DNA from: Actinomadura craniellae
GTDB lineage: Bacteria; Actinomycetota; Actinomycetes; Streptosporangiales; Streptosporangiaceae
Assembly (NCBI RefSeq): GCF_003289645.1
Contig: NZ_QLYX01000004.1
Coordinates: 1 to 64,000 of the forward strand
DNA: 64,000 nt
Direction of reading: 5' to 3'
This document shows positions 3,139 through 55,841 of this stretch, piece by piece (position 1 is the stretch's first letter; each line of letters starts with the position of its first letter). The notes beneath the pieces were generated by a model. That model searched no databases and was not told where the DNA came from. It saw only the letters and a program-made list of their open reading frames with translations. The translations under genes and the position numbers were made by a program.

Positions 3139-3140
3139 CC

Positions 3141-7951: not shown

Positions 7952-9744
7952 GCCGGGCGCTGGGGCCACGGCCGTCGCTCTGGCACACCGGGGCGATGGG
8001 CGGATGGCTGGTGCTGGCCGCCTGCTGGGCACCGGCCGGCGGGCTGTGGGTCGTGTGGGTGGCGGCCAAGATCGCCGCAATGCTGGCCGGTGGGACGGTG
8101 CTGCCGTTCGGGGCCGGTTTCGCCCTGGCTCTCGGCCGGGGTGCCTGGCCGGGGACGCCCACCTTCCTGGTCCTGGTGGTGCTCGCGGTGCTGGTCGCCG
8201 GGCTCGGGGCGCTGGTTTGGACGGTGTGGCGGTATGTCGCCGAGCGGTTGCCCCGGCCCGATGATCCGATCGCCGCGCTGGCCCACAACCCCGGCATCGA
8301 GGTCTTGAAGCATGCGCAGGCCGCGGGCAAGGCCGTCGAGCTGCGGCGTTCCCTCAAGGGCACCGACCCGTTACGGCTGGGGCCGGGCGAGGTCGGGTTG
8401 CTGCTCGGCGAACTCCAGCGGCCTGGGCGGCCCGGCAAGGGCACGGCGCTGTACGCGTCGTGGGAGGACACACTGGTCGCGTTCATGGCGCCGCGGTCCG
8501 GTAAGACCACCGCGCTGTCGATTCCGTACGTGCTGTCGGCGCCCGGTGCGGTGATCGCCACCTCCAACAAGGCCGACCTGTGGGCGGCGACCGCCCGGCT
8601 GCGCCAGGAGGCCGGGGGGCGGGTGTGGCTGTTCGACCCCCAGCACATCACCTACCAGCCGCAGGGCTGGTGGTGGAACCCGCTGTCCGGGCTGGCCACG
8701 GTGGAGGACGCGCACCGGCTTGCCGGCCACTTCGTGCTGACCGTCGACGACCCGCAGAAGAAGGACCTGTGGGGCCCGGCCGCCCAGGACCTGCTGTGCG
8801 CCCTGTTCCTGGCCGCCGCGACCTCCGGCCGCTCCCTGCGCCACGTGGCCGCCTGGCTGGACGAACCCGCCGTCCCCACCCCGATCGAACTGCTGCACCA
8901 CGCCGGATTCACCCTGATGGCCTCGTCGCTGAAAGGCACCCAGAACGGGGCTGTGGAGACCCGCGACGGGATCTACCAGACCGCCCGCACCGCCGCCAAA
9001 TGCCTGCGCGACCAGGACATCCTGTCCTGGGTCACCCCAGGCGACGCCCTGCCCGCCTTCAGCCCGGCCGAGTTCACCGCCGGCACGCGGCCCGGGACGC
9101 TGTACCTGCTGAGCAAGTCCCGCTCGGCCGCCGCCCCGCTGATCGCCGCCCTCACCGACACCGTGATGCGCGCCGCCGAGCACCACGCCGAACGCTCCGG
9201 CGGCAGGCTGGACCCGCCCCTGGTCGTGTGCCTGGACGAGGCCGCCAACATCTGCCGGATCGCCGACCTGCCCGAGCTGTACTCCCACCTCGGTTCCCGC
9301 GGCATCGTGCCGGTCACCATCCTGCAGTCCTACGAGCAGGGCGTCACCGTCTGGGGCGAACCCGGCATGGCCGCCCTGTGGGGAGCCGCCACCCGCAAGC
9401 TCATCGGCGCCGGCACGGACTCCCCCCGCCTGGCCCGTGACCTGGCCACCCTCATCGGCCAGCACGACGTCCCCACCCGCTCCCTCACCCACGCCGACGG
9501 CCGCACCAGCGAGCAGATCTCCCTGCGCCGCCAGGACATCCTCGAACCCGCCGCCATCCGTGCCCTCCCACCCGGGACCGCTCTGCTGCTGGCCACCGGC
9601 GGACGGCCGGCGCTGCTCGGGCTCTGCCCCTGGTACGCCGGGCCGCGGGCCGGGCGGATCGCCGAGTCCATCACCCTGGCCGAGGCCGCCATCACCGAAG
9701 GGGCCCGGAGGGCCGACGCGACCTGGCCGGAGGTGGCGGAGTGA
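7948..9744 (+). CDS. VirD4/TraG-type conjugative coupling protein
   Basis: A 598-residue protein with two N-terminal membrane helices (within about residues 10-95), then the ATPase: Walker A PRSGKTTAL (about 180), FDPQHIT, WWNPL and Walker B VVCLDEAANIC (about 426). The second half has the LGSRGIVPVTILQSYEQG and WGAATRKLIGAGTDS motifs of TraG/VirD4 proteins. Coupling proteins recruit the relaxase-DNA complex and any protein substrates to the channel. It is therefore the expected receptor for the shared C-terminal tail motif carried by six proteins of this element. The GTG start overlaps the stop of the VirB4 gene. Confidence 0.92.
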   Translation: MSRALGPRPSLWHTGAMGGWLVLAACWAPAGGLWVVWVAAKIAAMLAGGTVLPFGAGFALALGRGAWPGTPTFLVLVVLAVLVAGLGALVWTVWRYVAERLPRPDDPIAALAHNPGIEVLKHAQAAGKAVELRRSLKGTDPLRLGPGEVGLLLGELQRPGRPGKGTALYASWEDTLVAFMAPRSGKTTALSIPYVLSAPGAVIATSNKADLWAATARLRQEAGGRVWLFDPQHITYQPQGWWWNPLSGLATVEDAHRLAGHFVLTVDDPQKKDLWGPAAQDLLCALFLAAATSGRSLRHVAAWLDEPAVPTPIELLHHAGFTLMASSLKGTQNGAVETRDGIYQTARTAAKCLRDQDILSWVTPGDALPAFSPAEFTAGTRPGTLYLLSKSRSAAAPLIAALTDTVMRAAEHHAERSGGRLDPPLVVCLDEAANICRIADLPELYSHLGSRGIVPVTILQSYEQGVTVWGEPGMAALWGAATRKLIGAGTDSPRLARDLATLIGQHDVPTRSLTHADGRTSEQISLRRQDILEPAAIRALPPGTALLLATGGRPALLGLCPWYAGPRAGRIAESITLAEAAITEGARRADATWPEVAE

Positions 9745-9805
9745 GCTCCAACGTGGTGGGTCATGGGGAAAGACGTCGAAGCCGCCCGGGAGGTGTCCCC
9801 CTGGA

Positions 9806-10040
9806 GGGGAATGCGGCCGGGCGGACCCGACTTGCTCCCGTCCCGCCACAGCCGGCCCCCGCGGCTGCCCTCAGGCGCGTCCGCGCTGAGACCACCCGGC
9901 CCCACGGCCGAGCCGACGCCGCCACAGCATCCGCCGCCGAAGGGGAAACGCGGCCGGGCGGATCCGACTTGCTCCCGTCCCGCCACAGTCGGCCCCTGCG
10001 GCTGCTCTCGGGCGCATCTGCGCTGAGACCGCCTGGCCTC
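9806..10040. repeat. Two imperfect direct repeats of about 97 bp
   Basis: Copy 1 (9806-9902) and copy 2 (9942-10040) share GCGGCCGGGCGGA-YCCGACTTGCT and then CTCCCGTCCCGCCACAG and GGCTGC. They lie in the roughly 440-bp spacer between the coupling-protein and DUF4913 genes. A GTG-started frame (9741-10118) runs through both, but a 1-nt indel puts the copies in different frames of it. That argues the repeats are non-coding DNA. No other gene is visible in this spacer apart from the small frame at 10161. Confidence 0.7.
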
Positions 10041-10160
10041 GCCGCCGAACCGTCCCCGTCCCAGCGCCGCAGCACGGCCCATCTGATCAGCCGTACCGAA
10101 GACCCGAACCGTCCGTAGAACGCGGGGCCCTGGCCTCGCCGAGCGAAAGGAGCACCGCCC

Positions 10161-16804: not shown

Positions 16805-17916
16805 ACGCCCGGCCTGGCGCCCACCGATTCCCGGCCGGCGGATGGGCGATTCCCGAGCCGCTCGGATCGACGTCCGGCACTGGCTCTCGACCCGCGCCCG
16901 GTACGGCGGTGAAGGCGGTCTCGGCGATCCTGGCTCCGCTGATCGTGGCGCTGGCGGTGCTGGGCGGGGTGGGGTCGTTCGCCACGGTGCGGGAGATGGC
17001 GCGGCCGTGGTTCGGGGAGTCGGCGTGGATCGTGCCGGTCGGCATGGACGTCGGCATCGTGATCCTGCTGGCGTGGGATCTGCTGATGGAGTACCTGCGC
17101 CTGCCGTGGCCGGTGCTGCGCTGGGTCGCGTGGGCCTACATCGCCGCCACGGTGGCGGTGAACGTCCTGGCCGCCGGCGGGAACCTGGCGGGGAGCGTGA
17201 TCCACGCGGCGATGCCGGTGCTGCTGGTCACCGTGGTCGAAGGCGTCCGGCAGCTGATCCGCCGGTGGGCGGGGCTGGCGGCCGGAACGAGGCGGGAGAG
17301 GATCCCCGCCGTCCGGTGGGTGCTGGCCCCGGTCTCGACCGTCCTGCTGTGGCGGCGGATGGTGCTGTGGCAGGTCACCGCCTACCGGCACGGCCTGGAC
17401 CTGGAGTACCGGCACCTGCTGGCCGTCGCCCGCCTCCAGGAACGGCACGGGCGGTGGGCGTGGCGGTGGCGGGCCTCGCTGGCCGAACGGACGGCGCTGC
17501 GGCGGCTGCCCGCCGAAGCCACCGGGCACGGCGGCGCACTGGCGGATCCGGGTCCGCCTGGTCCAACACCTCCTCCGCTCTCCGCCGAACTCGGGTCAGC
17601 CAGTACGGCGGACGCACCCGTGCCGTCCGGCTTCGCCACGGTCGGCGGCGGGACACCGGGCGTCGATGCCGGCCCGCCTCTCCGTCCGGCCGAGGCCTTC
17701 GCCGCGGATGAGGTGCCGGCGGCCGTGGCCGGGTGGGCGAGCGCGGAACTGGTCACGGCGGCACGGCAGGTGGTGGCCGAGGCCGAGCGGCGAGGGGCGC
17801 GGTTGAGCAAGGCGGCGTTCGGGCGGCGGTTGCGGCAGCAGGGGTTCACCATCGCCAACCAGCGTCTGGCCGAGCTGCGCGCCGTCTGCGATGAGCCCCG
17901 GGCCAAGGGGGTATGA
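16801..17916 (+). CDS. DUF2637 (SpdB-like) membrane protein
   Basis: A 371-residue protein with four membrane segments between about residues 38 and 150 (AILAPLIVALAVLGGVGSF, WIVPVGMDVGIVILLAWDLL, WVAWAYIAATVAVNVLAAGG, AMPVLLVTVVEGVRQLI). A Pro-rich linker and a C-terminal basic helix-turn-helix-like region (VAEAERRGARLSKAAFGRRLRQQGFTIANQRL) follow. DUF2637 proteins correspond to the spread (Spd) proteins of Streptomyces conjugative plasmids, thought to act in intramycelial spread. It lies just upstream of the ArdC-primase gene, as in many actinomycete elements. Confidence 0.85.
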   Translation: MNARPGAHRFPAGGWAIPEPLGSTSGTGSRPAPGTAVKAVSAILAPLIVALAVLGGVGSFATVREMARPWFGESAWIVPVGMDVGIVILLAWDLLMEYLRLPWPVLRWVAWAYIAATVAVNVLAAGGNLAGSVIHAAMPVLLVTVVEGVRQLIRRWAGLAAGTRRERIPAVRWVLAPVSTVLLWRRMVLWQVTAYRHGLDLEYRHLLAVARLQERHGRWAWRWRASLAERTALRRLPAEATGHGGALADPGPPGPTPPPLSAELGSASTADAPVPSGFATVGGGTPGVDAGPPLRPAEAFAADEVPAAVAGWASAELVTAARQVVAEAERRGARLSKAAFGRRLRQQGFTIANQRLAELRAVCDEPRAKGV

Positions 17917-20101
17917 GTACATGGCGAGTCCCGGCCCCGGCTTCCCCACCCGACCGTCCGGACGTGTGGAGGCTGTTCCCGTGCCCTTCCCCGACGACCG
18001 GCGACAGCGGCTGCGGGACTTCCTGCACCAGGTCGCCGAGCAGGACACCGCCCGCCTGCGCACCGGCCGGCTGCCGTGGGTGTGGTGGCTGGAGCACGCG
18101 GCCCGGCACGGCCGCCACGGGTTCGTCAACACCTTGCTGATCGCCGCCCAGTCCCCCGCCGCCGTCGAGGTGCGCTCCTACGAGGACTGGCAGGCGCGCG
18201 GGCGGCAGGTCCGCAGGGGCGAGGGCGGGATCCGCATCCTGTCGCGCAAGGACCGGCCCCGCCCGGTGTTCGACCTCTCCCAGACCGATGGCGGCCCGCT
18301 CGACGAACTCGTCCCGGTCACCGCTGCCGAGGCGTACGAGCGGCTGCGCGCCCTGGCCGCCGATCTCGGGTTGTACGTCCAGCGCGGCCAGCGCTGGACC
18401 TACGCCGGACGGGCCGACCGGCTGATCCGCGTCGACCCCGCCCTCGGCGACTTCGGGGCCACCACCGAACTGGCCCACCAGCTCGCCCACGTACTGCGTC
18501 GCGGCGACCACCCCGACCCGCACGCCGACACCTGCCACGGCGCCCGCCGCGTCCACGCCGACTCCGTCGCCTACCTGGCCCTGGCCCGCCTGGGGCTGGA
18601 GACCTCCCATCTGGTCTTCCCGCCGGCCGCCGCCTGGGCGGGCACCGACCCCCGCGCCCGGCCTTCCGAGGCCGTCCGACAGCTCGGCGACCAGATCCTG
18701 CGCACCACCGCCCACCTGCACCGGCGGCTCCCCCGGCCCGGGGAGAGCTCCCCGGGCGCCGGCGTCGGCCCACTCGGGCATGAGCGCCTTGGCGGCGGCG
18801 TTCCCCGCCCGGTCCGGCGTTCGGGCAAGCGCAGCGGGCGACCTACGGAAAACCGACCCGACACGACCGTTCAGCTCGCCGAGACGCCGGTCGGCGGCGA
18901 GAACTCGGCCAGGCCCAGACCGGACGGGCAGGGCAGGCCCGCCAAGCGGCGTCCCAGCGGCGGGCAGTCCTTCTCCCCGGCCAGGGGAACCGCCCATGCT
19001 CAGGCCCTCTTGGCCGTTCACCGCGCCGCGCACCGCTTCTTCCAGTCGAACCTGGCCGGCAGCTGGGTGCCCGGATACCTGTCCGACCGCGGGTTCAGCG
19101 CGGACGTCCCGCAGCGTTGGGAGCTGGGGTACGCGCCGAAAGCCGGGCGGACGCTGACCGACCACCTGCGCCGGATCGGCCATTCGGACCAGGTGATCCT
19201 GGCGTCTGGGCTGGCCCGCCGCACCAGGACCGGCGCGCTGTTCGACGCCTTCCGCGACCGGCTCGTGTTCCCGCTGCGCACAGGTGAGGGCGCCGTCGTC
19301 GCCTTCATCGGCCGGCGGCCCGACGGCGCGCCGGGCCCCAAGTACCTCAACAGCCCGGAGACCGCGCTGTTCCGCAAGGGCGAGGTGCTGTTCGGGCTGC
19401 ACGAGACCCGGGACCGGCTGGCGGCCGGGGCCCGGCTGGTCATCGTCGAAGGCCCGCTCGACGCCATCGCCGTCAACACCACCGACGGGTACGCCGCTGT
19501 CGGCCCCTGCGGCACCGCGCTGACCGCCGCCCAGCTCGCCGCCCTCGGCCGGCACGCCGACCTGGATACCGCCGGAGTCCTGCTCGCCCTGGACGGCGAC
19601 CCGGCCGGGCAGGCGAGCACCATCCGGGCCTGGCTGACGCTGTCCCACCTCACCGGCCCGCTCGACGCGCTCGTCCTCCCGGACGAGCGCGACCCGGCCG
19701 ACGTCCTGCGCGCTGGAGGGCCGCCCGCTGTCCGTACCATGCTGCGGTTCCCGGTCCCGCTCGCCGACCTGGTCGTCGACGCGTGCATCGACCGGTACGG
19801 CGGGACGCTGGAGTTCGCCGAGCAGAAGCTCACCGCCGTCCGCGCCGCGACCGCGCTCATCGCCCGCATGCCCGCCGTCCAGGTCCCCCGCCAGGTCGCC
19901 CGCCTCCATGCTCGCACCGGCGTCGAGGTCGCCATCGTTACCGACGCCCTCACCGAGGCCGTCGGCGGCGAGCCCGCGGGCGCCCCTGCCCTGGCGGCCA
20001 GGAGCTTCCCGGTGCCGCCCGGCCCCAACTCACCCGAAGAGCAGGCGGCCACCGGCCCCGTGCTCACGGACCCGTCCACCTCGCCGAGGAGAAGGTGTTG
20101 A
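17891..20101 (+). CDS. ArdC-type N-terminal domain fused to DnaG-like TOPRIM primase
   Basis: A fusion of up to 736 residues; ATG 17921 is an alternative start. Residues of about 30-280 match ArdC/N-terminal antirestriction domains (WVWWLEHAARHGRHGFVNTLLIAAQ, SYEDWQARGRQVRRGEGGI, and HxxxH in TELAHQLAHVL). After a low-complexity linker comes a DnaG-like primase core: YLSDRGFSADVPQRWELGYAP, FRDRLVFPL, and TOPRIM with VIVEGPLDAIAVN and LLALDGDPAGQAS. ArdC protects incoming single-stranded DNA from restriction, and conjugative primases act in the recipient. Both classes are known T4SS cargo in proteobacterial plasmids. The C-terminus carries APALAARSFPVPPG, 39 residues from the end, the tail motif shared with the relaxase. 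Confidence 0.85.
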   Translation: MSPGPRGYEYMASPGPGFPTRPSGRVEAVPVPFPDDRRQRLRDFLHQVAEQDTARLRTGRLPWVWWLEHAARHGRHGFVNTLLIAAQSPAAVEVRSYEDWQARGRQVRRGEGGIRILSRKDRPRPVFDLSQTDGGPLDELVPVTAAEAYERLRALAADLGLYVQRGQRWTYAGRADRLIRVDPALGDFGATTELAHQLAHVLRRGDHPDPHADTCHGARRVHADSVAYLALARLGLETSHLVFPPAAAWAGTDPRARPSEAVRQLGDQILRTTAHLHRRLPRPGESSPGAGVGPLGHERLGGGVPRPVRRSGKRSGRPTENRPDTTVQLAETPVGGENSARPRPDGQGRPAKRRPSGGQSFSPARGTAHAQALLAVHRAAHRFFQSNLAGSWVPGYLSDRGFSADVPQRWELGYAPKAGRTLTDHLRRIGHSDQVILASGLARRTRTGALFDAFRDRLVFPLRTGEGAVVAFIGRRPDGAPGPKYLNSPETALFRKGEVLFGLHETRDRLAAGARLVIVEGPLDAIAVNTTDGYAAVGPCGTALTAAQLAALGRHADLDTAGVLLALDGDPAGQASTIRAWLTLSHLTGPLDALVLPDERDPADVLRAGGPPAVRTMLRFPVPLADLVVDACIDRYGGTLEFAEQKLTAVRAATALIARMPAVQVPRQVARLHARTGVEVAIVTDALTEAVGGEPAGAPALAARSFPVPPGPNSPEEQAATGPVLTDPSTSPRRRC

Positions 20102-26521: not shown

Positions 26522-27727
26522 TCAGGCCAGGAGGAGGAACCGGTCCCAGGCCGGGGTCGGGCAGGTGCCGGTGCCGACGGTGTGGAGGGCGAGGGCTGCT
26601 CCGGCCGCGCCGTCGAGCAGTTCGGGGTCGGTGATCGGCCCGTCCAGCCGGTCCAGTAGCCGGGCGGTCAAGCGGGGCAGTTCGCTGGTCAGACCAGGGG
26701 CGTCGGCGGCCATGCGCCAGGTGGCCTGGAGCAGCCCGGCGGTGCCGTGGCACAGGCCGATCTCCGGTCCGAGCAAGTTGAGGTGGGCCGGGGCGCCGAG
26801 GGCGGTGAGGATGGCGGTTTCGGCGAGGCGTTGTCGGGTCGTGTCTCCGAGTGCCATGCCCGCCAGTTGCTGGGCGCGGGCGGTGCCGGCGATGCCGTAG
26901 CACCAGGAGGGCCGGGGTCGGGCGCTCTGGTCGGGGGTGACGAAACCGGGCCACCAGGGTCCATCGGTGTCGTTGCGCCACTGGTCGGTCCAGCCGCAGA
27001 TTCGCTCGATGGCCTCGGGCATGCCGGGGACCGGGATGTCCTGGAGGACGGCCAGGGACAGCAGCGCCAGGACGGCGCCGATGCCGTGGGCGACGCCGAT
27101 GTTGGCGTGGCCGTGCGGGAAGTCGGGATGCGGCTCGCCGGTAGGGGCCAGGTCGGTCCACCAGGGGGCGAGGGCGGGGTCGGTGGGGAGCGGTTCGGTG
27201 AGCCGGAGCAGGTAGGCGAGGACGTCGCGGGTGATCGGGTGGTCGGGGTGGCGTTCCAGGTGGTAGGCGCCCAGCCCGGCCAGGCCGCGGATCAGGTCGA
27301 ACTCCTTCGGCTCGGGTCGTTCGCCGCGGTCGATGCGGGCGTGCGCGGCGGTGAGGCGCCTGCGGGTGATCGCGATGGTGGCGTCCGCCAGGCGGGCCGG
27401 TGTCCGGGCGTGGCGGCCGGGGGTCGCGGCGGTGTGCGTGACGAAGGCCAGCGCGGGGACGCCCACGTAGAGGCCGGCGTTGGCGGCGGCGGTCAGCGCG
27501 TCGCGGGCGGCGGCCGACAGCCAGGTGCGGGCGGTGCGCCAGTCGCCGTGCCCGGTCCGGGCTCGGGTGATGTGCAGGAGCGCGATGCCGGCGGCACCGC
27601 CGGCCAGCGACTGCGGCCATGCCCGGCCTCCGCCGGCCGGGATGGTCGCCCAGGCGGTGGCCGGGTCGGACAGGGCTGTGGCGAGGGTGGTGGCGGCTGC
27701 CAGTGCGTTCGGGTCGGGCGGGGTCAT
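26522..27727 (-). CDS. LanC-type lanthionine cyclase
   Basis: A 401-residue zinc enzyme that adds Cys thiols to dehydrated residues to close (methyl)lanthionine rings. The (alpha/alpha) barrel repeats show as GGAAGIALL, GLAGLGAYHL, HGIGAVLALL, CYGIAGTARA, CHGTAGLLQA and GAAGAALAL. Zinc ligands are visible: Cys in SWCYG (about residue 277) and Cys-His in GLCHGT (about 324-325). The active-site His is probably in HANIGVAHGIG. Length is typical. The ATG overlaps the LanB stop (ATGA). The enzyme looks fully functional. Confidence 0.92.
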   Translation of the reverse strand: MTPPDPNALAAATTLATALSDPATAWATIPAGGGRAWPQSLAGGAAGIALLHITRARTGHGDWRTARTWLSAAARDALTAAANAGLYVGVPALAFVTHTAATPGRHARTPARLADATIAITRRRLTAAHARIDRGERPEPKEFDLIRGLAGLGAYHLERHPDHPITRDVLAYLLRLTEPLPTDPALAPWWTDLAPTGEPHPDFPHGHANIGVAHGIGAVLALLSLAVLQDIPVPGMPEAIERICGWTDQWRNDTDGPWWPGFVTPDQSARPRPSWCYGIAGTARAQQLAGMALGDTTRQRLAETAILTALGAPAHLNLLGPEIGLCHGTAGLLQATWRMAADAPGLTSELPRLTARLLDRLDGPITDPELLDGAAGAALALHTVGTGTCPTPAWDRFLLLA

Positions 27728-30700
27728 CGTGGGCCCTTCGCGCGTGCGGCCCGGCTCAGGGCCGCGGCACGGGCCAGGTGCAGGCAGCGGCGTTCGCCCG
27801 GCAGGTCGAGTCCGGCCATGCGGGTGTGGTGGAGGTGCAGCAGGTCGGGCAGCAGTTCCCGGGCCGATCGGGCATCGGTAAGGGCCCGGTAGGCGCGCAG
27901 CTTCTGGCGGCGGCGAGCCCAGCAGGCCAGCAGATGGTCGCCGCCTGGCAGGGCGGACACCTGGTGCTGATCAGGGTCGGCCAGGGTGACGGCCTGCCGG
28001 TACAGCGGGCGGGCCGGAGCGGGCGTCGTGGTGCAGGCGTGGTCGATGAGCCACCGCGTCGCCGCGGCGGGGCTGCCGAGGAGGCCGGCGGTGATGTCGA
28101 GGATGCTCGCGGCGGTGAGGGCTTGGGGGTCGGTGTCGCCGCGGTCGGCGATGGCCAGCTGGGCGAGCGCGGCTGTGGAGTCGGCCGCGAAGTAGGCCTC
28201 GGCCACGGCCATCGTCGCCCCTGCTCCGAACCGGCCCTCCTCCGGGAAGTAGGTGTCCCACTGGACGCGGCCGACCAGCCCGGCCTGACGCAGCCGGTCG
28301 CTCCAGTCGGCCAGCCGGGCGGTGACGGCGGCTGAGCGAGCGGCGGGGACGGTCAGGCGGAGCCGCAGATGATCGTGCGGGTCGCGGTAGCGCAGGAACC
28401 ACCAGGTCGCCTGACCGTCCAGGGCGTCCACCAGGTGGGGCAGGTGCCGCAGCAGGATGGCGTTCTGGCCGCCGGGGTGGCTGTAGAGCTTGAGGTAGAA
28501 CCGTCCGGGGCTGCCGGGGAGGTGGCCGTGGTCACGGCCGGGTACCCGCGGGTGGCGCGGTAGCCGGGGTGGAGGGGCGGGCTCGCGGGTGGACGCCAGC
28601 GGGATGACGATCTCGTGGGCGCGGCCGTCGATCCATCCCGACGCGTCGGGGGCGGGTGCGGCGCGCAAAGTGAGGGTGGCGTCGGGTCTGAGCAGGGAGC
28701 GGAGCACCGCCCGATGTGCGGGCTCGGCCAGGTCCAGGCCGAGCCGCCGATCGCCGTCCCCGGCGTAGACGCGAAGGGGCAGCCCGGTCTGTTCCCGCCA
28801 GGCGGTCAGGCCGTGGTCCCAGCCGTTCCCATCCGCCTCGGGTCCTGGCAGGGCGGCGGCGGGAAGTAGCCAGCGCGCCGGGGACAGCAGCGTCCGCCCG
28901 TACCGGAGGGCGGGCAGGAACGGCAGGCGGGACGCCGCCCCCCAGTCGAAGGCCGTGCACGGTACGGCCAGCGCGGTGGGCGCTTCCAGGAGGAAGCGCG
29001 CGAGCGGGTGGGTCTGGCGGACCGGCTCCACCGCGGTCAGCGCCACCGGCTCCACCGGGCGGCGCAGCGACCGCGAGATCAGCAGGATCCGGTCGATGTC
29101 CGCGGTGATGGCGAGGTCGTCGAGCGCGATCACGTCCGCACCGGCGGGGTGGTGTTCGCCCAGCGCAAGCAGGTGGGGCAGCGCCCGGAGGGATCTGGCG
29201 ACGTTCTCGGTGGCCGCGTACAGCGGTGGCGCGGACAGTTGCGCGAGGATCGCCCCGCGCGTCACGGTCGGCAGATCCGCGTACGCCAGGCGCATCCGGT
29301 CGCGGTCCGGCTCGGCGAGCAGATGGAGGAACCGTCCGGTGGTGGTGCCGGCGTTGCGCGACACACCGGTGATCGACAGGGCGAAGTCTCCGTCGTCCAG
29401 GGCGCGCACGGAGGCGGCGTGGACGCGGACGGTCAGTTCGGTGCTCGGCTGGACGGCCGCCCGCGGGCCGGTGTCGGCCAGTTCGGCGATCGCCGCGTCG
29501 TCCAGGGTCACCTCGTGGTCACCGCGCAGCGCGGCGTTCTGGGCGAGGGCCAGGAGCTTGTGGTCCCGGCCGGTCATCGCGGGGGCGGGGGCGGCCGGTG
29601 CGCTGAGGTATCCGGCCGGGAATCCGAGTCCGATATCGGGGTCGACCGCGTCGCGGACGGGGACCAGGGCGTGCGGCCCGTACCGTTCGAGGAACTCGCG
29701 GTGCCAGGCCGCCCATCCACGGCCGAGATCTCCCCGGGGCGCCAGCCGGACGAGCGCGGACGCGGCCCTCGCGGCCTCGTCCGCCACCGCGGACGGCACC
29801 GTGACCTCCACATCCATCCGCAGGTCCGTTCTCACGGCACGGTCCGCTGGGACGGATGCCTTCGCCGTCCCCACGGCGAGTTCGGCACGCTGCGAGCGGG
29901 TCATTTCCGGGATGGTTCGGCGGGCGAGTGCGTCGCCGGCCTCGCGAAGAGCGGTGACGGTCCCGGCCAGTTGCGGGATGTCCGACGCGGACACCGCGTC
30001 GAGTTCGGCGAGCAGGTGGGGCAGCGGGTCGGTCACGGTCATCGGCGACCGCAGGGAAGTGATCAGCAGGCGTTGGTCCACCAGTTCCGCCAGGAGCCGG
30101 GTGATGACGTCGCCGGGGACTCCCGGGAAGGCGGCGGCGAGATGGGCGGCCAGGTCGGCCGACCGGATCGGTGCGGACGCGGCCCGCAGTGCCGCCCGGA
30201 CGGCGGGAGTGGCCCGCACCCGCACCTGGACGGGTGCGCCCCCCGCACCGCCGGCGGGACGGTGGGTCAGCAGCACCTCGCCGTCCCGCTCGACGATGAG
30301 GTCGTGCCGCACCACCGGCAGCCGCCGCAGGAGCGCCGGGTCGGCCTCCAGCCGCTCGATGACCGCCCCCAGCCAGGCGGAGTCGACGTTGCTGACGGGC
30401 CGGTGCCCGGTGCCGATCCCGAGCGCGGCCCGATCGGAGATCCGGGCCGGGGCGACGCCGGCGAACAGGCCGAACGGCGTCGCCCGTCCCAGGGCGCGCA
30501 GCAGGTACCGCGCGGTGGCCAGGGTCGCGCGACGCGCGTCGGGCTCGGCGACCCGCTTCCCCGCGAGGATCTCGTGGACGCGGCGAGCCAGGGCCGGGCT
30601 GGCCTGCTCCACCGCGGCGGCGAAGGCCGGCAGCCGCATGACCGTCTCCAGCCACGGCTGCCAGGAGTGCTGCCCGGCCGGGCCGGTCAGGTCAGGCCAT

Positions 30701-30768
30701 GCGGGGATCCCGGTGTGCGGCGGCCAGGCCGTCATGCGGATCACCGCGGCGTCGAGGGGCTGGTACAC
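27724..30768 (-). CDS. LanB-type lantibiotic dehydratase
   Basis: A 1014-residue full-length class I dehydratase. The N-terminal glutamylation region begins YQPLDAAVIRMTAWPP and contains RYLLRALGRATPFGLFAGVA and FLERYGPHALVP. The C-terminal elimination domain, from about residue 753, reads FYLKLYSHPGGQNAILL, WWFLRYRDPHDHLRLRL and VQWDTYFPEEGRFG. LanB uses glutamyl-tRNA to dehydrate Ser/Thr in the precursor. I place the start at GTG 30768 because CGGAG lies 6 nt upstream, the family's conserved sequence begins at that point, and a perfect hairpin occupies the space before it. An ATG at 30873 would overlap the precursor gene and add an unconserved extension. Confidence 0.9.
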   Translation of the reverse strand: MYQPLDAAVIRMTAWPPHTGIPAWPDLTGPAGQHSWQPWLETVMRLPAFAAAVEQASPALARRVHEILAGKRVAEPDARRATLATARYLLRALGRATPFGLFAGVAPARISDRAALGIGTGHRPVSNVDSAWLGAVIERLEADPALLRRLPVVRHDLIVERDGEVLLTHRPAGGAGGAPVQVRVRATPAVRAALRAASAPIRSADLAAHLAAAFPGVPGDVITRLLAELVDQRLLITSLRSPMTVTDPLPHLLAELDAVSASDIPQLAGTVTALREAGDALARRTIPEMTRSQRAELAVGTAKASVPADRAVRTDLRMDVEVTVPSAVADEAARAASALVRLAPRGDLGRGWAAWHREFLERYGPHALVPVRDAVDPDIGLGFPAGYLSAPAAPAPAMTGRDHKLLALAQNAALRGDHEVTLDDAAIAELADTGPRAAVQPSTELTVRVHAASVRALDDGDFALSITGVSRNAGTTTGRFLHLLAEPDRDRMRLAYADLPTVTRGAILAQLSAPPLYAATENVARSLRALPHLLALGEHHPAGADVIALDDLAITADIDRILLISRSLRRPVEPVALTAVEPVRQTHPLARFLLEAPTALAVPCTAFDWGAASRLPFLPALRYGRTLLSPARWLLPAAALPGPEADGNGWDHGLTAWREQTGLPLRVYAGDGDRRLGLDLAEPAHRAVLRSLLRPDATLTLRAAPAPDASGWIDGRAHEIVIPLASTREPAPPPRLPRHPRVPGRDHGHLPGSPGRFYLKLYSHPGGQNAILLRHLPHLVDALDGQATWWFLRYRDPHDHLRLRLTVPAARSAAVTARLADWSDRLRQAGLVGRVQWDTYFPEEGRFGAGATMAVAEAYFAADSTAALAQLAIADRGDTDPQALTAASILDITAGLLGSPAAATRWLIDHACTTTPAPARPLYRQAVTLADPDQHQVSALPGGDHLLACWARRRQKLRAYRALTDARSARELLPDLLHLHHTRMAGLDLPGERRCLHLARAAALSRAARAKGPR

Positions 30769-30790
30769 CGAACGCTCCGGAGAGTGCGGA

Positions 30791-30821
30791 ACGGCCGGGC
30801 CGTCTGGGACGGCCCGGCCGT
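30791..30821 (-). promoter_or_regulatory. Hairpin between precursor and LanB genes (attenuator)
   Basis: ACGGCCGGGCCGTC (30791-30804) and GACGGCCCGGCCGT (30808-30821) are perfect complements around a 3-nt loop. The stem begins 19 bp after the precursor stop and ends 22 bp before the GTG chosen for lanB. A partial terminator or processing hairpin in this place would allow much more precursor than dehydratase to be made, a known arrangement in lanthipeptide operons. Confidence 0.75.
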
Positions 30822-30839
30822 CGACGAAGAATTCAGCCG

Positions 30840-31028
30840 CTACGGGCAGGTGGGCGAGCAGGCGGACTGGCACGTCGTGCCGCAGCCGTCGTCGGTCATC
30901 CTGATGAGCTTGTCCGCCTCGGGACCGGACTCGACGATCGAGACGTCCAGTTCCCAGTCCTCGAATCCCGCCGCCTGTTCCGTGACCGGCGGGAGCGCCG
31001 CCGGGGCCGTGCCGAACTGGATGGACAT
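30840..31028 (-). CDS. FxLD-family class I lanthipeptide precursor
   Basis: A 62-residue precursor. The leader holds FEDWELDVSIVESGPEAD, matching the FxLD family leader; the signature is W-E-L-D here, with Trp in place of the first Phe. The core IRMTDDGCGTTCQSACSPTCP has four Cys and several Ser/Thr for (methyl)lanthionine rings. AGGAGG lies 5 nt before the ATG. It lies between the FxLD methyltransferase and LanB genes on the same strand, the standard order. The leader cleavage site and protease cannot be assigned from this sequence. Confidence 0.9.
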   Translation of the reverse strand: MSIQFGTAPAALPPVTEQAAGFEDWELDVSIVESGPEADKLIRMTDDGCGTTCQSACSPTCP

Positions 31029-39996: not shown

Positions 39997-41859
39997 TCAC
40001 AGTCCAGGGCGGCGAGGCTCTGGAGGCTTTGTCCTGCCCGATCGGTCCGGTGCCGGTGGGCTTTCCGCCGGTGCCCAGGGCACAGGGAAGGCGGTCATCG
40101 CCAGGTCCACCGGTGTTGGGGCATGAGCGGGCTGAGTGAGCCAGGGAACCTGACGGTTCTGTGCCGATCCGGCCTGGTGGAGATGCCGGCCGGCGGCCTG
40201 GGCCGCCGCCGCTTGGGCGTGCCGGTGCTCGGCTTGGTGGAGTTGGGCGATGGTGTCGATGAGGGTGATGAGGTTGGCGGTCAGGAGCATGACCGCCTGA
40301 GTGCCCTGGTCGCCGAAGACGCCGGTCATGGCCAGCAGTCGGGCGGCGGTGCGCAGGCCGGTACCGGCCGGGGTGGGTGCGGGGATGCGACCGTAGGGGG
40401 CACGAGCGGCCCGGTCGTAGGCGTCGGCCGCGGCGCGCAGATGGCGGTTGCCGGTGGCGTGGGCGGCCACATGCAGGGTGTCGGAGGCGGCCCAGATCGC
40501 ATCCCGGGCGGTGTGCGGGTCGACCGCCATGCAGCGGCGAACCTGGGCGGTGGCGTAGTCGGCCGCGCGTGCGGCGTCCTCGTAGAACGCCCGGCGCTCC
40601 TCCACCGTGAGGTCCATCGCCGGCTCGGGGTCCAGGTGACGGGTGGATCTCGGCCCCCAGCGATGTTCCAGGCGCTGCCAGGACAGGTCGTCGGACAGCC
40701 GACCGCCGCCGTACCACCGGGGTTGCCCGTCGGGGTCGGTGTGGTCGGGCAGGGTGACGGAGTAGCCAGTGATCTGGCCGGGGTGGAACTCGCTGAACCG
40801 CTGCTTGGCCAGCACGCCGTTGCGGGCCAGGTGCTCGAAGAACTCCTCGGGCGTCCGCGTCTGGTCGGCGGCCTGGCGGACGATCGTCCGCAGCACGGCC
40901 CGGGCGGACCGGACGGACAGGTGGCGGCCCGATACCGGCTGGTAGTCCCCGGGTCGCGGCTGACCGAGCGATCGGTCAGCCGGATCGAGCGGAGAGCGCG
41001 GCCGGGGCACGGCCGGGACGGTCCAGCGGTGGCGGAGCTTGGGCAGGGTCAGGTCGGCGGCGAGCTTGCCGCCGCCGTACCAGACCGGCTGACCGTCCGC
41101 GGCCAGGTCGCCGGGGAGAGCGACGGCGTACCCGGTCACCTCGCCCGGATCCCGGCGGCTGAACCGCATTCGGACCAGGGCACCCTGCTCGCGCAGGCGG
41201 GCGAAGAACTCGGCCTCGTCCCGAGCTCCGGCCGCGGCGGTGGCCGCGTGGCGGCGCAGCGCGGTCCGCGGCGGCTCGGCCCAGCCGCGGCGGCGGGCCT
41301 TCTCGGTCTCTCCGCGTTTGGGCCGCTTGGCCGCGGTCCGGTCGGCCGGGGCCGTCCGCCGTAACCCGAACCGCTCCTCGATCGCCCGGCAGGCGTCGCG
41401 CACCCGGTAGCCGTCGTTCCACACGTCCGGACGCTCGCCGTCCTGGCGGGCCAGGGTCGCGATGATGTGGATGTGGTCGTCGGCATGGCGGACCGCAACC
41501 CACCGGACCGCTTCCTCGTCCTCGGGCCGGGCCAGCCCGGTCCGGGCCATCACCTCCCGTGCGGCTTGAGCCCACTGCTCGTCGGTCAGCACCGGGTCCT
41601 CCGGAGCCGCCCGCAACGACAGGTGCCAGACCGGCTTGCGATAGTTGCGATCACCGAGCATCGCCAGCGGCTGGGCCAGCAACCCGTCCAACCGCCGGAA
41701 ATCCCGCCCGCCGTCCGGTAACAGCGCCGGCTCCAATTCCGCCGGGCTGCGGAAGCCAGCTACGATATGCGGATCGCGGTGTTCACCGTGCTCGCCCGGG
41801 CCGTACACATATCGGATCAGACCCTGCACCCGCGCCCCACGCAATACTTTTCCGATCAC
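39997..41859 (-). CDS. Relaxase (MobA/VirD2-like mobilisation nuclease)
   Basis: A 620-residue relaxase that nicks and carries the transferred strand. It begins VIGKVLRGARVQGLIRYVYG with GTG 41859; an in-frame ATG at 41934 would add 25 residues. WHLSLRAAPEDPVLTDEQW and RWVAVRHADDHIHIIATLA hold the HxDxHxH-type metal-binding motif of MOBP-like relaxases. Two copies of a related module follow (FSRRDPGEVTGYAVALPGD...WYGGGKL and FSEFHPGQITGYSVTLPDH...WYGGGRL). The C-terminal region ends in TPVDLAMTAFPVPW, 39 residues from the end, the tail motif shared with five other proteins encoded at 10-21 kb. This ties it to that T4SS. Confidence 0.88.
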   Translation of the reverse strand: MIGKVLRGARVQGLIRYVYGPGEHGEHRDPHIVAGFRSPAELEPALLPDGGRDFRRLDGLLAQPLAMLGDRNYRKPVWHLSLRAAPEDPVLTDEQWAQAAREVMARTGLARPEDEEAVRWVAVRHADDHIHIIATLARQDGERPDVWNDGYRVRDACRAIEERFGLRRTAPADRTAAKRPKRGETEKARRRGWAEPPRTALRRHAATAAAGARDEAEFFARLREQGALVRMRFSRRDPGEVTGYAVALPGDLAADGQPVWYGGGKLAADLTLPKLRHRWTVPAVPRPRSPLDPADRSLGQPRPGDYQPVSGRHLSVRSARAVLRTIVRQAADQTRTPEEFFEHLARNGVLAKQRFSEFHPGQITGYSVTLPDHTDPDGQPRWYGGGRLSDDLSWQRLEHRWGPRSTRHLDPEPAMDLTVEERRAFYEDAARAADYATAQVRRCMAVDPHTARDAIWAASDTLHVAAHATGNRHLRAAADAYDRAARAPYGRIPAPTPAGTGLRTAARLLAMTGVFGDQGTQAVMLLTANLITLIDTIAQLHQAEHRHAQAAAAQAAGRHLHQAGSAQNRQVPWLTQPAHAPTPVDLAMTAFPVPWAPAESPPAPDRSGRTKPPEPRRPGL

Positions 41860-42045: not shown

Positions 42046-42465
42046 TCAGGGCAGGCGCAGCCGGACCTCATCGGCGACCTCGTCTAGTTTCTGCACACTT
42101 CGGTACGCCGCATCGGCGTACCAGCGCAACGCTGACGACAACTCCCCGGAGTTCAACGCCGCAACCGCCTGATTGAGATTCACCCCGATGCGTCTGACCT
42201 GGCCGGACGCCCGTACCACCGCACCCAGGAGATCCCGTAACACCGCGTGCTCCGACCTCTCCTCTCCTCGCGCGGCGGCCAGCACGACCTGTGCCGCGTA
42301 CGCTCCGTTGGCCAGCCCCTCCCGCTCAGCCGCCGCGGTCACCACCTCGTACTCCTGCACCGACAGCACGAACCGCACCGCCCGCCTGCGCGGCGGATCC
42401 TGATGCGCACGCCGGCCCCGCCGCCTCCTCGCCGCCGACTTCGCCCCACCCTCATCGACACCCAT
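42046..42465 (-). CDS. mobC: MobC-like relaxosome accessory protein
   Basis: A 139-residue protein. A basic N-terminus is followed by a ribbon-helix-helix-like region (RRAVRFVLSVQEYEVVTAAAEREGLANGAYAA) and the MobC signature LLGAVVRASGQVRRIGVNLNQAVAALNSG. MobC binds oriT and helps the relaxase open DNA at nic. AAAGGGG precedes ATG 42465. It is upstream of the relaxase on the same strand, separated by about 190 bp of relatively AT-rich DNA without a gene, and directly downstream of the palindromic region at 42485-42574. Confidence 0.85.
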   Translation of the reverse strand: MGVDEGGAKSAARRRRGRRAHQDPPRRRAVRFVLSVQEYEVVTAAAEREGLANGAYAAQVVLAAARGEERSEHAVLRDLLGAVVRASGQVRRIGVNLNQAVAALNSGELSSALRWYADAAYRSVQKLDEVADEVRLRLP

Positions 42466-42484
42466 GCCCAGCCCCTTTCCTAGG

Positions 42485-42574
42485 GGACCGCGCCCGGTCC
42501 CGCTGTTCATCACCGCCACTTCGAAGTGGCGGTGATGAACAGTGTGCAAGGCTGGACCGCGCCCGGTCCAGCCT
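42485..42574. other. Palindrome cluster upstream of mobC: candidate oriT or relaxosome operator
   Basis: A perfect 40-bp palindrome without spacer (arms 42503-42522 and 42523-42542, CTGTTCATCACCGCCACTTC and its complement) is flanked on each side by GGACCGCGCCCGGTCC (42485-42500 and 42554-42569). Each flank is itself a hairpin with stem GGACCG/CGGTCC. The right-hand one extends to a 10-bp stem (GGCTGGACCG...CGGTCCAGCC, 42551-42574). This nested symmetry begins 20 bp from the start of mobC, where oriT or the MobC autoregulatory site is normally found. Confidence 0.6.
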
Positions 42575-42891
42575 TTAATGGCACGTTTTACATTTCTTGC
42601 CCGGCGCCAGCCGAGGCCCCGTTCAGCGCCACGATGACAGAGCAATACTCCGCGTTCTCAACTGTCCCAATTAATGCCTTGAGGTGATTCTCAATCACGT
42701 ACCGTCCAGCTCGATCCAGCAGCGGATATGACCGCAGGCGAGAGGCTTTGCAGCATCTGAATTCTCGTTGATGAGTGACATGTCGCAGGTGGCCTCTCCC
42801 CCGCAGCCAGGTGAAGGGAGCTGCTCTGCACGAGGTGCTCTTCCTCCGATCAGGCCGGTCGAGGTGCCCTACCGCGAGGAACGGTGGCGAC
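42575..42891. other. Spacer between the mobilisation module and the LuxR-type gene
   Basis: This 317-bp stretch is more AT-rich than its surroundings (for example TTTAATGGCACGTTTTACAT near 42574) and has no supportable gene. It may contain the nic site or the remainder of oriT. It is also where the mobile element could give way to other DNA. Confidence 0.4.
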
Positions 42892-43953
42892 CTAATCGAC
42901 GAGACCGCGTCGGACGGCTGCGACTCCTATGGCGAAGCGGTTGTGGACGCCCAGGGCATCGCGGATGGCGTTGAGCTGGCGGCCGACCGTGGCGAGGCTC
43001 ACTCCCAGCTGATCCGCGATGGCCTTGTCCGGCAGGTCCTGTACGAGCAGGCGCAGGATCTTCATCTGGATCGGCGGGAGAGGCTCGTTCTGCCCGTCGG
43101 GTGCGCCGTACGGCGTCGCGCGCTCCCACAGGAGTTCGAAGTACTCCCTCAGCGCTCCCACGATCACCGAGGACTGGAGGAGCAACGCGCCTGCCGAACT
43201 CTTCTCGGCCAGTGGCATCAACGCGATCGCCTCGTCGGCGATTCGCATGCTCATGCCGATCTGCGGGAGAAGCCGGACAGTGGCACCGACCCGGACGTCG
43301 GCATCGACGCTCTCGCGTCCGGCGGGTGATTCGACTCGGCTGCTCTCGTAGATCGCCCTGCATCTTGTACGGCTGTAGGAGGGGGGTCGCGCGTCATCGG
43401 GTCGGTCGCCTGCGATGTGGTCGCCGAGGATCAGCCACTCGCGCTGTGCCGAGCCGACCAGTGTCGACGTCAGCTCGGCGAGCCTGTCCTGGTCGGTAAG
43501 GAACTGGACCAGCTGGTTCATGGAGCCGTCCACCGCCGAGCCGGTTCCCCTTTGGGCGGTGCGGAGGCGTTCCTGTCCCTCGAGCAACATCTGGTGCTCG
43601 GCCGCGAGGTCGCCGGCGAGGCGCGCCAGGGCTCGCTGCAGCGCCAGATCCGGCGAAGCCGGTACGAGGGCCGGGTGGCCGTCCGCGTCCTCCTGGAGGT
43701 AGGCCATCCCCTGACGGGTGAGGAGTTCGACGTGCTCGCCGTCGCCGAGCAGGCTCGTTGCCTCCTCGACCGGGCAGCCGCCCTGCACGAGCATCGGGAT
43801 ATAGAGAGCCAGCAGCTCGTTCTGGATCACGCCTTCCAGGAGCTGCCGCGCTCTGAATGCGAGCGAGCCACGGTGCAAGTCACTCACGGCCAGGACTTTC
43901 TGGGTGCGGGTAGGAGCGGTCAGGGGAGGTGGTGCGAGCTCGGGCGGGGTCAC
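42892..43953 (-). CDS. LuxR-type transcriptional regulator, paralogue 1
   Basis: A 353-residue regulator. The N-terminal region (FRARQLLEGVIQNELLALYI, GCPVEEATSLLGDGEHVELLTRQGMAYL) resembles a TrmB/winged-helix domain. A middle region follows (IADEAIALMPLAEKSSAGALLLQSS). A C-terminal LuxR HTH closes the protein (QMKILRLLVQDLPDKAIADQ, LGVSLATVGRQLNAIRDALG). It aligns throughout with the protein at 47129-48172. Both bracket an MFS transporter and an S9 peptidase, all on the same strand. Such regulators often control neighbouring export or natural-product genes in actinomycetes. The ligand is unknown. Confidence 0.8.
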   Translation of the reverse strand: MTPPELAPPPLTAPTRTQKVLAVSDLHRGSLAFRARQLLEGVIQNELLALYIPMLVQGGCPVEEATSLLGDGEHVELLTRQGMAYLQEDADGHPALVPASPDLALQRALARLAGDLAAEHQMLLEGQERLRTAQRGTGSAVDGSMNQLVQFLTDQDRLAELTSTLVGSAQREWLILGDHIAGDRPDDARPPSYSRTRCRAIYESSRVESPAGRESVDADVRVGATVRLLPQIGMSMRIADEAIALMPLAEKSSAGALLLQSSVIVGALREYFELLWERATPYGAPDGQNEPLPPIQMKILRLLVQDLPDKAIADQLGVSLATVGRQLNAIRDALGVHNRFAIGVAAVRRGLVD

Positions 43954-47128: not shown

Positions 47129-48172
47129 TCATGTGACCCAGCCACGGCGGGCGGCCGCGGCTCCCGCCGCGAAGCGGTTGGCGGCTCCCAACTCCTTGCG
47201 GATGTCGCTGACGTGCCGCCGCACGCTGGCGACGTTCATGCCGAGCCGGCGCGCGACGCGCTCGTCCGTCATGTCCTGGGCGAGCAGTTGGAGGATCGTT
47301 CGCTGGACGTCGCTCAGTGGCGGCTCGGCCTCGGCTGCCCCGACCGGGACCGCCCGTTCCCACAGCAGCTCGAAGTACTGCCGCAGAGCGCGCACGATGA
47401 GAGGAGACCGGACCAGCAGCGCCCCGGACACTCCGGTCGGCATCAGCGGAAGCAGCGCCACCGCCTCGTCGGCGAGCTTCATCTTCATGCCGATCCTCGG
47501 AACCGTCCGGGCCTCTTCGCCCGCCTCCGCGTGGATCTTCATGATCTGGGCGCCGATCGGGGTATCGGCGCAGGACTCCTGGTAGATGCACCGGCATCCG
47601 ACCTCGCCCTCGAACACCGGCAGCGGCGGCATCGCGACCAGCTCCTCCAGCGGCCGTTCCATGACGAAGTTCTCCAGAGTGAGCCAGTGCCGCCGCGCCG
47701 TGCTGAGCAGCGCGCGGGACACGTCGCTGATCTCCGCCCGGTTGGTGAGGACGGTGACCAGCCGGTCCCGGCCGGCTTCCAGCACACCCGGGAACGGATG
47801 CGCCTCGGCCATCCGGCGGTAACCGTCCACCAGCCGTTGCTGGCGCGCCACGAGCCTGCGGGAAAGCGCGGCAAGGCTGCTCTGCAGAGCCAGCTCGGGT
47901 TGGATCGCGACGAAGCGCGGCTCCCCCGCCAGACCGGCCGGCTCGACGTACGCCATCCCCGCCTCGGTGAGCGTCGCCACCATCTGCGGGCCTCCGAGCA
48001 GGTCGGCCGCCTCGCCGTTCGGGCACCCGCCGCGCACCAGCAGCTCCTTGTACGAGGTGAGCACACCGTCGTCGACGATGCCCTGCAGAAGCCTCGTCGC
48101 CGTCTCTCCAGCCTCGAACCCCACCCGCCACCTCCGAGCACAGAGAGTAACGAGCATGGCTACTTGCGTCAC
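47129..48172 (-). CDS. LuxR-type transcriptional regulator, paralogue 2
   Basis: A 347-residue protein similar along its length to the regulator at 42892-43953: GCPNGEAADLLGGPQMVATLTEAGMAY, LADEAVALLPLMPTGVSGALLV, ALRQYFELLWERAVP, and the C-terminal HTH QRTILQLLAQDMTDERVARRLGMNVASVRRH. It is the first gene of the leftward peptidase-MFS operon and ends at the peptidase start. The N-terminal 10-15 residues are poorly conserved, so the true start may be slightly later. Confidence 0.8.
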   Translation of the reverse strand: MTQVAMLVTLCARRWRVGFEAGETATRLLQGIVDDGVLTSYKELLVRGGCPNGEAADLLGGPQMVATLTEAGMAYVEPAGLAGEPRFVAIQPELALQSSLAALSRRLVARQQRLVDGYRRMAEAHPFPGVLEAGRDRLVTVLTNRAEISDVSRALLSTARRHWLTLENFVMERPLEELVAMPPLPVFEGEVGCRCIYQESCADTPIGAQIMKIHAEAGEEARTVPRIGMKMKLADEAVALLPLMPTGVSGALLVRSPLIVRALRQYFELLWERAVPVGAAEAEPPLSDVQRTILQLLAQDMTDERVARRLGMNVASVRRHVSDIRKELGAANRFAAGAAAARRGWVT

Positions 48173-50783: not shown

Positions 50784-51562
50784 CGGCCCCACACGAGACG
50801 ACCCTCGTGCACACACGGCTGTCACGGTGCGCCCTCGAGGTGGAGGACTCACGCGCCTTCTGGGCCCGCACCGACGGAGCTACGAGCGTGAGCGCCCAGC
50901 AGGCATTCGACGAGTACTGGTTCGGCGCCCGGAGCCTGGCGCGCGTCGAGGTTCTTCTCGCCAACATGCGGGCTCGCTTCAGCGCCTTCCCTGCGGCACT
51001 CGCCGTCCTTCACCGCTGGCAGCACATGTTGCCCGAGACGCGCCGGGTTATCTGCCACTGGCACCTGCAGCTCAGCGACCCGCTCTACCGGCGCTTCACG
51101 GGCATCTACCTGGCGGAGCGCCGTGCGGGAGCCCGGCCCGAGGTGACTCGGGACCTTGTGGCCACCTGGGTCGGGCTGCACGGCCCTAGCCATTGGACGA
51201 TGACGATGCGTATCCAGTTCGCCAGTAAGCTCCTGTCCGCGGCGTACTCGGCCACCGTGGTGACGTCCAACCGGGATCCGCGCCCCATTGGGACGCCGCG
51301 CGTGCCGGACGAGGCTCTTGAGTATCTCCTGTACCTGCTGCGCGAAACGGAGTTCGAGGGAAGCCTTCTCGACAACCCATACCTGAGATCAGTCGGCCTT
51401 GACGGCACTCTCCTCGAAGAGCGCCTGCGTGGACTCCCCGGCCTCGCGTTCCGGCGGCAGGGCGACCTCACCGACTTTGGCTGGCGCCACCAGGACCTGC
51501 TCGCCTGGGCAGCGGCCACCCTCCGTGATGGCACCTCGCGCCTGGCTGGGGCCGCTCTGTGA
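50780..51562 (+). CDS. brxA: BrxA (DUF1819) BREX protein
   Basis: A 260-residue protein of the BrxA/DUF1819 family: FDEYWFGARSLARVEVLLANMRARFSAFP, LPETRRVICHWHLQLSDPLYRRFTG and LEYLLYLLRETEFEGSLLDNPYLRSVGL. BrxA is a small NusB-like, probably nucleic-acid-binding helical protein needed in several BREX types. The GTG start overlaps the brxE stop and the stop overlaps the brxB start, so all three are translated together. Confidence 0.88.
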   Translation: MTAPHETTLVHTRLSRCALEVEDSRAFWARTDGATSVSAQQAFDEYWFGARSLARVEVLLANMRARFSAFPAALAVLHRWQHMLPETRRVICHWHLQLSDPLYRRFTGIYLAERRAGARPEVTRDLVATWVGLHGPSHWTMTMRIQFASKLLSAAYSATVVTSNRDPRPIGTPRVPDEALEYLLYLLRETEFEGSLLDNPYLRSVGLDGTLLEERLRGLPGLAFRRQGDLTDFGWRHQDLLAWAAATLRDGTSRLAGAAL

Positions 51563-52215
51563 CCTTGCCCCTGTTCCAGCAGAGCCCGCTGTTCCAACAT
51601 GGTCCCCTGCACGAGGCGTTCACCGCACTGCGCCGCGATCTCATCCACGAGAACGGCCCACACATCAGTACGATGCGCAACTACCGTTTCGCCATCGTGC
51701 AGTACAAGCCGGCCGAGGAGTTCAGGCTCCGCAGCGAGGTACAGCACCTAACCACCGACCTGGCCGCGAACGGCTGGATGGTCATCTCGATCAGCCTGCA
51801 GAAGCTGTTCATCGACAGGGTAAGGGCGCAAGGTCAAGACTGGGTTGACCGAGTCTTGGCCATGGAGGAGCGTCTGGCCAGCACCGACCCGGAGCGCGGG
51901 CTGAACTACCTGAAGTCGAAGGTCTCGCCCCTCATCGAGGGGCCGGACGGCATCGCGGCTGACTGCTCCCGCATCGTCTGCGAGTATGCGGACCGGCACC
52001 CCGACAGCATCGATCGGACGGTCGCCCTCATCGGGCGCGCGGGAGCGCTCTACCCCTTCATCCAGTCATCAGCCCTGCTGCGCCACCTCGATGGCAGAAC
52101 GCGCAACGTTCCGGTGGTCCTGCTCTATCCGGGTGAGCGGCGCGGCCCGACCGGGCTCTCGTTCATGGGCGTTCTCAGTCCGGACAACGACTACCGGCCA
52201 CGGATCTACCCCTGA
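51559..52215 (+). CDS. brxB: BrxB (DUF1788) BREX protein
   Basis: A 218-residue DUF1788 protein. FRLRSEVQHLTTDLAANGWMVISISLQKLFI, GALYPFIQSSALLRHLDGRTRNVPVVLLYPG and LSFMGVLSPDNDYRPRIYP form the typical alpha/beta core and C-terminal strand. BrxB is a core BREX component of unknown biochemical activity, probably part of a larger complex with BrxC and PglZ. The GTG overlaps the brxA stop, and brxC begins 8 bp later. Confidence 0.9.
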   Translation: MTLPLFQQSPLFQHGPLHEAFTALRRDLIHENGPHISTMRNYRFAIVQYKPAEEFRLRSEVQHLTTDLAANGWMVISISLQKLFIDRVRAQGQDWVDRVLAMEERLASTDPERGLNYLKSKVSPLIEGPDGIAADCSRIVCEYADRHPDSIDRTVALIGRAGALYPFIQSSALLRHLDGRTRNVPVVLLYPGERRGPTGLSFMGVLSPDNDYRPRIYP

Positions 52216-52223
52216 AGGGCACC

Positions 52224-55837
<3,614 letters not shown>

Positions 55838-55841
<4 letters not shown>

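Follow-up and report, generated by a model that had tools for sequence, protein, structure and literature searches.

The DNA between approximately 42484 and 42613 of the window, i.e. the whole stretch of 64,000 nucleotides from Actinomadura craniellae that was analysed, is with a probability of about 0.85 an oriT with sites for relaxosome assembly. The sequence of this site, its conservation and covariation in relatives and its linkage to mob genes were established directly. The site adjoins the genes of a relaxase and of its predicted accessory protein and is conserved together with them, and an inverted repeat is located 5′ of a conserved nick-like core. An initial annotation had proposed an oriT or relaxosome control site at 42485-42574, based on a long palindrome with flanking hairpins. 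The proposed function is supported by the conservation of the site upstream of mobC homologues, but the palindrome itself is its least conserved part, and the nick-like core and two small stems fall outside the annotated interval.

Palindromes and hairpins at the site

The centre of the site is formed by stem P (42503-42542), which is, as annotated, a perfect and loopless palindrome of 40 bp: its arms of 20 nt each (42503-42522 and 42523-42542) are 100% complementary with a gap of 0 nt. No palindrome in the window is longer; the next-longest inverted repeats are located at 30791-30821 (14-bp arms with a 3-nt gap) and 7903-7928 (a perfect palindrome of 2 x 13 bp). The statement that such a structure is far beyond chance holds as well, with approximately 1e-6 half-sites of 20 bp expected at the GC content of the window and a longest loopless half-site of 11 in 20 simulated windows compared to the 20 nt observed.

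On the plus strand, hairpin A (42484-42501; GGGACCG-CGCC-CGGTCCC) is located between the palindrome and the start of mobC at 42465, from which it is separated by 18 bp. Hairpin B (42548-42575, plus strand) has a stem of 12 bp and the loop CGCC. The GGACCG-CGCC-CGGTCC hairpin is indeed present on both sides of the palindrome, its second copy sitting within the 12-bp stem of hairpin B, but the flanks are not quite symmetric: hairpin A ends at most 2 bp from the palindrome, the core of hairpin B lies 11 bp away and the B stem is longer. Further to the right on the same strand follow stem C (42577-42587; AATG-GCA-CGTT), a small nick-proximal inverted repeat that is weak in the window and strong and covarying in many relatives, the nick-like core (42590-42602; ACATTTCTTG/CCC, with the slash marking the predicted cut) and, to the right of the predicted nick, stem D (42602-42613; CGGC-GCCA-GCCG). 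Folded as single-stranded DNA, the region 42480-42620 reached -57.2 kcal/mol (z = -10.5), and 0 of 200 shuffled sequences were as good.

Conservation and covariation in relatives

The conservation upstream of homologous mobC genes, on which the initial annotation had staked its proposal, was found: related sites are present there across the Streptosporangiales. A DNA search with the site gave matches in 27 of 297 family genomes, of which the stronger ones are mostly located beside mobC and the weakest (L026-L029 and L031-L033) resemble chance matches. Additionally, a protein search with MobC yielded 80 loci; 62 were taken as actinobacterial and the remaining 18, mostly from Mesorhizobium, were left out for the analysis of sites. 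A CTTGC-type core was present in 81 of 85 upstream regions, including two that are wrong or spurious (L081 and L096), and four regions were without a core. The selection of cores required CTTGC, CCTGC or CTTCC near CATTTCTTGC, that of B loops required CGCN, and thus the constancy of both is partly by choice. L081, L096, L100 and L075 were removed by hand before the pairing and wobble counts for stem B, identical stems were merged (from 77 to 55 sequences), and L073 and L039 were removed for the alignment (from 55 to 53), in which many rows represent related species.

In the 55 distinct sequences of stem B, 83% of the cells are paired and two-sided changes occur in 11 of 12 pairs, with a covariation of 0.491 compared to 0.140 in shuffled (reached by 0 of 500) and at most 0.121 in slid alignments. 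For stems B, C and D together (53 sequences), two-sided changes were found in 14 of 16 pairs and the covariation was 0.314 versus 0.124 after shuffling (0 of 500). Pairing amounts to 65% of the cells in stem C and 68% in stem D; the latter is the weakest stem, with 27 of 55 sites reaching at least four perfect pairs versus 32 of 219 control stretches. As judged from these sequences, a real hairpin at B is favoured, since the loop-distal pairs vary yet stay paired and the loop stays CGCN, this loop itself having been used in choosing the sites. Covariation of palindromic sequences could also result from a dimeric protein that binds double-stranded DNA. Wobble counts for stem B on the plus strand (20 G.T versus 20 A.C) gave no sign of this strand being the folding strand, and the comparison for stem A comprised too few informative pairs.

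A counterpart of hairpin A was detected in 47 of 55 loci (39 distinct) and not found in the other 8. Among the 39 distinct loci, the loops of A and B are spaced by 26-32 nt in 27 cases and by 68-88 nt in 12 cases, the latter being those with a central stem, which in other genera contains a loop. As this spacing reveals many relatives without a central stem, the palindrome is regarded as a lineage-specific, loopless version of it. Stem P, as one form of a central stem that varies among relatives, is thus the least conserved module and probably accessory; conservation is found in hairpins A and B, the core and the two small stems.

The nick-like core

The core and the letters downstream of it read ACATTTCTTG/CCCGGC on the plus strand. 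CTTGC occupies alignment columns 53-57 in 53 of 53 sites, a set that was itself chosen by a similar core. The nick consensus of MOBP systems is given as (C/T)ATCCTG(C/T) in the accessible part of the respective publication (PMC3772185); the window core TTTCTTGC deviates from it at two positions and hence is not a MOBP-type nick region in the strict sense. Planotetraspora-type cores (TATCTTGC) are one letter off this consensus, and the exact form TATCCTGC occurs in Planotetraspora silvatica at locus L095, which is outside the 53-site alignment because its B stem is the same as that of L080 and was merged with it. By analogy to these systems, the cut is predicted on the plus strand between 42599 and 42600. 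In relatives, the loop of hairpin B begins 38-43 nt 5′ of the predicted nick.

In order to search with the site itself, a model comprising B, C, the core and D was run on 296 class genomes and 200 family genomes, where it matched in 11 and 43, respectively. Forty matched loci were examined, of which 17 contain a training site and 23 do not; 8 of the 23 are places dropped or merged earlier, leaving 15 independent loci. Ten of these carry MobC and/or a relaxase in the expected orientation and five carry neither. All 8 independent matches with E < 1e-5 are located at mob modules, two of them in other families, compared to 2 of 7 at mob genes above this value. One weaker match represents a third module of the own genome (C20:30622-30690), and the five weak matches with no mob gene nearby (L146 and L148-L151; E 1.1e-4 to 8.2e-4) are probably due to chance. 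At E < 1e-5, the site model thus locates mob modules from DNA alone.

Elements without a relaxase gene

In Actinomadura bangladeshensis (L038:5493-8857), the site is accompanied by mobC, a gene for an NYN-domain protein and a tyrosine integrase gene, and no relaxase homologue was found. This stretch is bounded by the 3′-end of a tRNA-Ile gene and a direct repeat of this end (46 bp, 98%), which are 3319 bp apart, and is a candidate for a minimal relaxase-less mobilizable element of 3.3 kb. Two more relaxase-less Actinomadura loci (L052 and L058) are located near tRNA-Ile; a second tRNA-Ile repeat was searched for in both and not found. Mobilisation of relaxase-less elements in trans is a named case in a review (PMC5704250, accessible part), and the integrative mobilizable elements consisting of oriT and an accessory factor (case V therein) resemble L038 in combining tRNA repeats, an integrase, the site and mobC without a relaxase. 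In contrast to them, the L038 element has only 3.3 kb, belongs to a relative and not to the window, and is a putative mobilizable element.

Sites also persist beside deleted or degraded remnants of mobC and relaxase genes at L039:6640-6780, L127:955-1060, L043 and L044; in L127, part of B and the core are lost. Streptosporangium sp. KLBMP 9127 (L040 and L041) carries two near-identical sites with mobC approximately 38 kb apart on one contig, and the relaxase of one of the two is truncated.

These loci bear on the reading as a control site only, in which the mobC-relaxase operon is regulated through the hairpins, acting as operators or as a switch in the leader RNA, and the oriT lies elsewhere. 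The proximity of hairpin A to mobC would suit such a function, and MobC of plasmid RA3 represses its own promoter via an imperfect palindrome next to oriT, according to the sections available of that report (PMC4175270). However, CTTGC, the best-conserved stretch of the site, lies together with stems C and D approximately 110-150 bp from mobC, the wobble counts show no RNA-specific bias, and the site is kept without a relaxase gene in L038, which fits mobilisation in trans and argues against pure operon control. Exclusive operon control is therefore considered improbable.

MobC, relaxase and coupling protein

The mobC gene (42046-42465, minus strand) encodes a predicted relaxosome accessory protein of NikA-like or MobC-like type. 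Its matches to Pfam models (NikA-like, E 0.0012; MobC, E 0.0035) were both below the cut-off, and a weak match to the MobC_2 model was obtained as well; a NikA-like match was present in 17 of 17 MobC homologues at E values up to 10 (best 4.2e-6). The monomer model contains two helices in the order of a ribbon-helix-helix (RHH) protein with no strand assigned, and a fold search with it gave no match to a known RHH protein and nothing useful; MobC is probably a ribbon-helix-helix dimer. A motif reported for the accessory proteins of MobP relaxases (PMC4175270, sections available), which reads LxxugxNlNQiaxxLn in RA3 MobC, resembles RRIGVNLNQAVAALN of the window protein by eye. A tblastn search of MobC against plasmids gave no match.

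The relaxase gene (39997-41859, minus strand; PF03432) was assigned a start at the conserved MIGKV. An N-terminal tyrosine (Y17) and H125, D128, H129 and H131 of the motif HADDHIH are invariant in 24 sequences, and the protein thus combines the PF03432 domain, the HUH motif and the N-terminal tyrosine of a MOBP relaxase. Its sequence retrieved no relaxase from solved structures. With the modelled N-terminal domain, Foldseek alone gave weak matches and a second aligner clear ones: the 25 best are all relaxases, MobM being the closest solved fold (Z 10.6 over 164 residues), and the first unrelated structure is BirA (Z 5.8). According to this model, the window relaxase has an HUH-like fold.

Actinobacterial plasmids are known to carry MOBP relaxases together with MobC (PMC6305408, accessible part). 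Relatives of the window relaxase occur on 276 plasmid records; ten were opened, which MOB-suite types as MOBP (4) or non-mobilizable (6). On several of these, most clearly on the Streptomyces plasmids, a Streptosporangium plasmid and a Gordonia plasmid, mobC is preceded, as judged by eye, by stems together with a core of the TTGC or TCGC type, quite different in sequence; the plasmid loci L131, L133 and L135 showed no clear counterpart by the same inspection.

Hairpins with conserved loops are reminiscent of single-strand origins, which counts for a double- or single-strand replication origin, at which rolling-circle replication would be initiated by the HUH protein and transfer would be secondary. 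The HUH fold is moreover common to relaxases and replication initiators, as stated in the accessible part of PMC4814116, but the site is linked to MobC, on plasmids there is linkage to annotated mobilisation genes as well, and the best fold matches are relaxases; this makes a replication origin very improbable.

A VirD4/TraG-type coupling protein, the sole match in the genome, is encoded at 7378-9744 (plus strand) and is a possible partner of the site. The region 186-10118 around it also encodes an NlpC/P60-SLT hydrolase, an SCO6880-family protein and a protein with a weak VirB4-like match, and owing to this neighbourhood a conjugative element is probably present in the window. Other genes in the window include lanthipeptide genes (26522-30873; LanC-like, lantibiotic dehydratase) and a large protein with a weak ArdC N-terminal match joined to a DnaG-type primase (17891-20101). 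LuxR-type regulator genes at 42892-43953 and 47129-48172 flank a transporter-like frame and a prolyl-oligopeptidase-like gene.

Further copy in the genome

A second copy of the site is located on contig C18 of the own genome, just upstream of another mobC-relaxase pair. Its palindrome shows three differences in the left arm, two of which are compensated on the right arm, and the two mobC genes are 77% identical. Comparison of the two copies gave dN/dS values of 0.24 for the relaxase and 0.22 for mobC, which indicates that both genes are under purifying selection. The frame of the C18 relaxase (L006:1089-3101) is interrupted by a premature stop that follows the N-terminal domain. Beyond the palindrome side, the two copies share approximately 40 bp ending with TTTACATTTCTTGCCCGGCGCCAGCCG, which hold stem C, the nick-like core and stem D; the similarity then stops.

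A transcription terminator, a recombination site or a transposon end, for which the strong GC-rich hairpins and the end of the homology just past stem D could be cited, is the least probable reading, as no terminator-like or sigma-70-like site was found in 42300-42900, the relatives are without a T run after hairpin B and the ends of the L038 element are tRNA-Ile repeats, not palindromes. A coding sequence was rejected as well: an open frame in the window spans mobC through the palindrome, but an in-frame stop lies between nick and mobC in 25 of 44 relatives.

Proposed function and comparison with known systems

For an oriT with relaxosome-assembly sites, we infer the position and strand of the nick, the binding partners and the transfer itself as follows. 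A MobC dimer would bind hairpins A and/or B, of which A is a likely binding site, and the relaxase would be positioned at the core ACATTTCTTG/CCCGGC. The plus strand would be cut at about 42599/42600, the relaxase would stay on the 5′-end, and the strand would be handed to a coupling protein. The right-hand side of the window would then enter the recipient first and mobC and the relaxase gene last; if the predicted nick is right, the leading side is the one with the BREX-type genes (51559-55841; BrxB and a weak BrxC-like match). On the transferred strand, the hairpins would lie 5′ of the nick, in the position of the termination repeat of R1162 and R64, for which the whole inverted repeat is needed for termination of transfer (PMC5863519, accessible part). 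The palindrome may space or shape the complex, perhaps as a cruciform, and hairpin A probably doubles as mobC operator by analogy with the RA3 palindrome.

The site resembles the oriT of RP4/Ti-type MOBP systems, including the Helicobacter tfs4 oriT, in having an inverted repeat 5′ of a short core ending with TG/C, upstream of the relaxase module, and the relative L095 shares their exact nick consensus. It differs from them in the two deviating core positions and in several further stems, including the hairpins with CGCN loops. With the oriT-mobCp region of the IncU plasmid RA3 it shares a mobC-relaxase pair directly preceded by oriT and palindromes; unlike the window, RA3 has an imperfect palindrome as operator that overlaps the promoter, and the available sections of the RA3 report do not mention an array of hairpin, palindrome and hairpin. 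The pMV158 oriT, bound by MobM (MOBV), likewise is a single oriT with several inverted repeats able to extrude as hairpins, and its three-repeat region is described in the part accessible to us as switching hairpins when MobM binds (PMC5863519). The repeats of pMV158 are predicted to exclude one another, whereas the stems in the window are separate and side by side, and the window has a MobC-like gene.

A more far-reaching reading, which is rather doubtful at present, combines an actinobacterial oriT family read mainly by shape, with stems free to vary and CGCN loops and nick distance kept, a central stem that turned into a loopless palindrome in this lineage and switches, as a cruciform, between repression of mobC and transfer, and small integrated elements that borrow the relaxase of another element via the same site. 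Searches of one open-access library, most subscription papers being outside this scope, revealed neither an oriT described for this family of MobC and relaxase nor an earlier account of the oriT family; single-strand conjugation by a relaxase in actinobacteria is already known. Given a nick prediction at base level, a structure model for detecting the modules from DNA alone and a relaxase-less element of minimal size, transfer in antibiotic-producing genera becomes directly testable, and for poorly transformable strains the site offers a candidate sequence for mobilisation.
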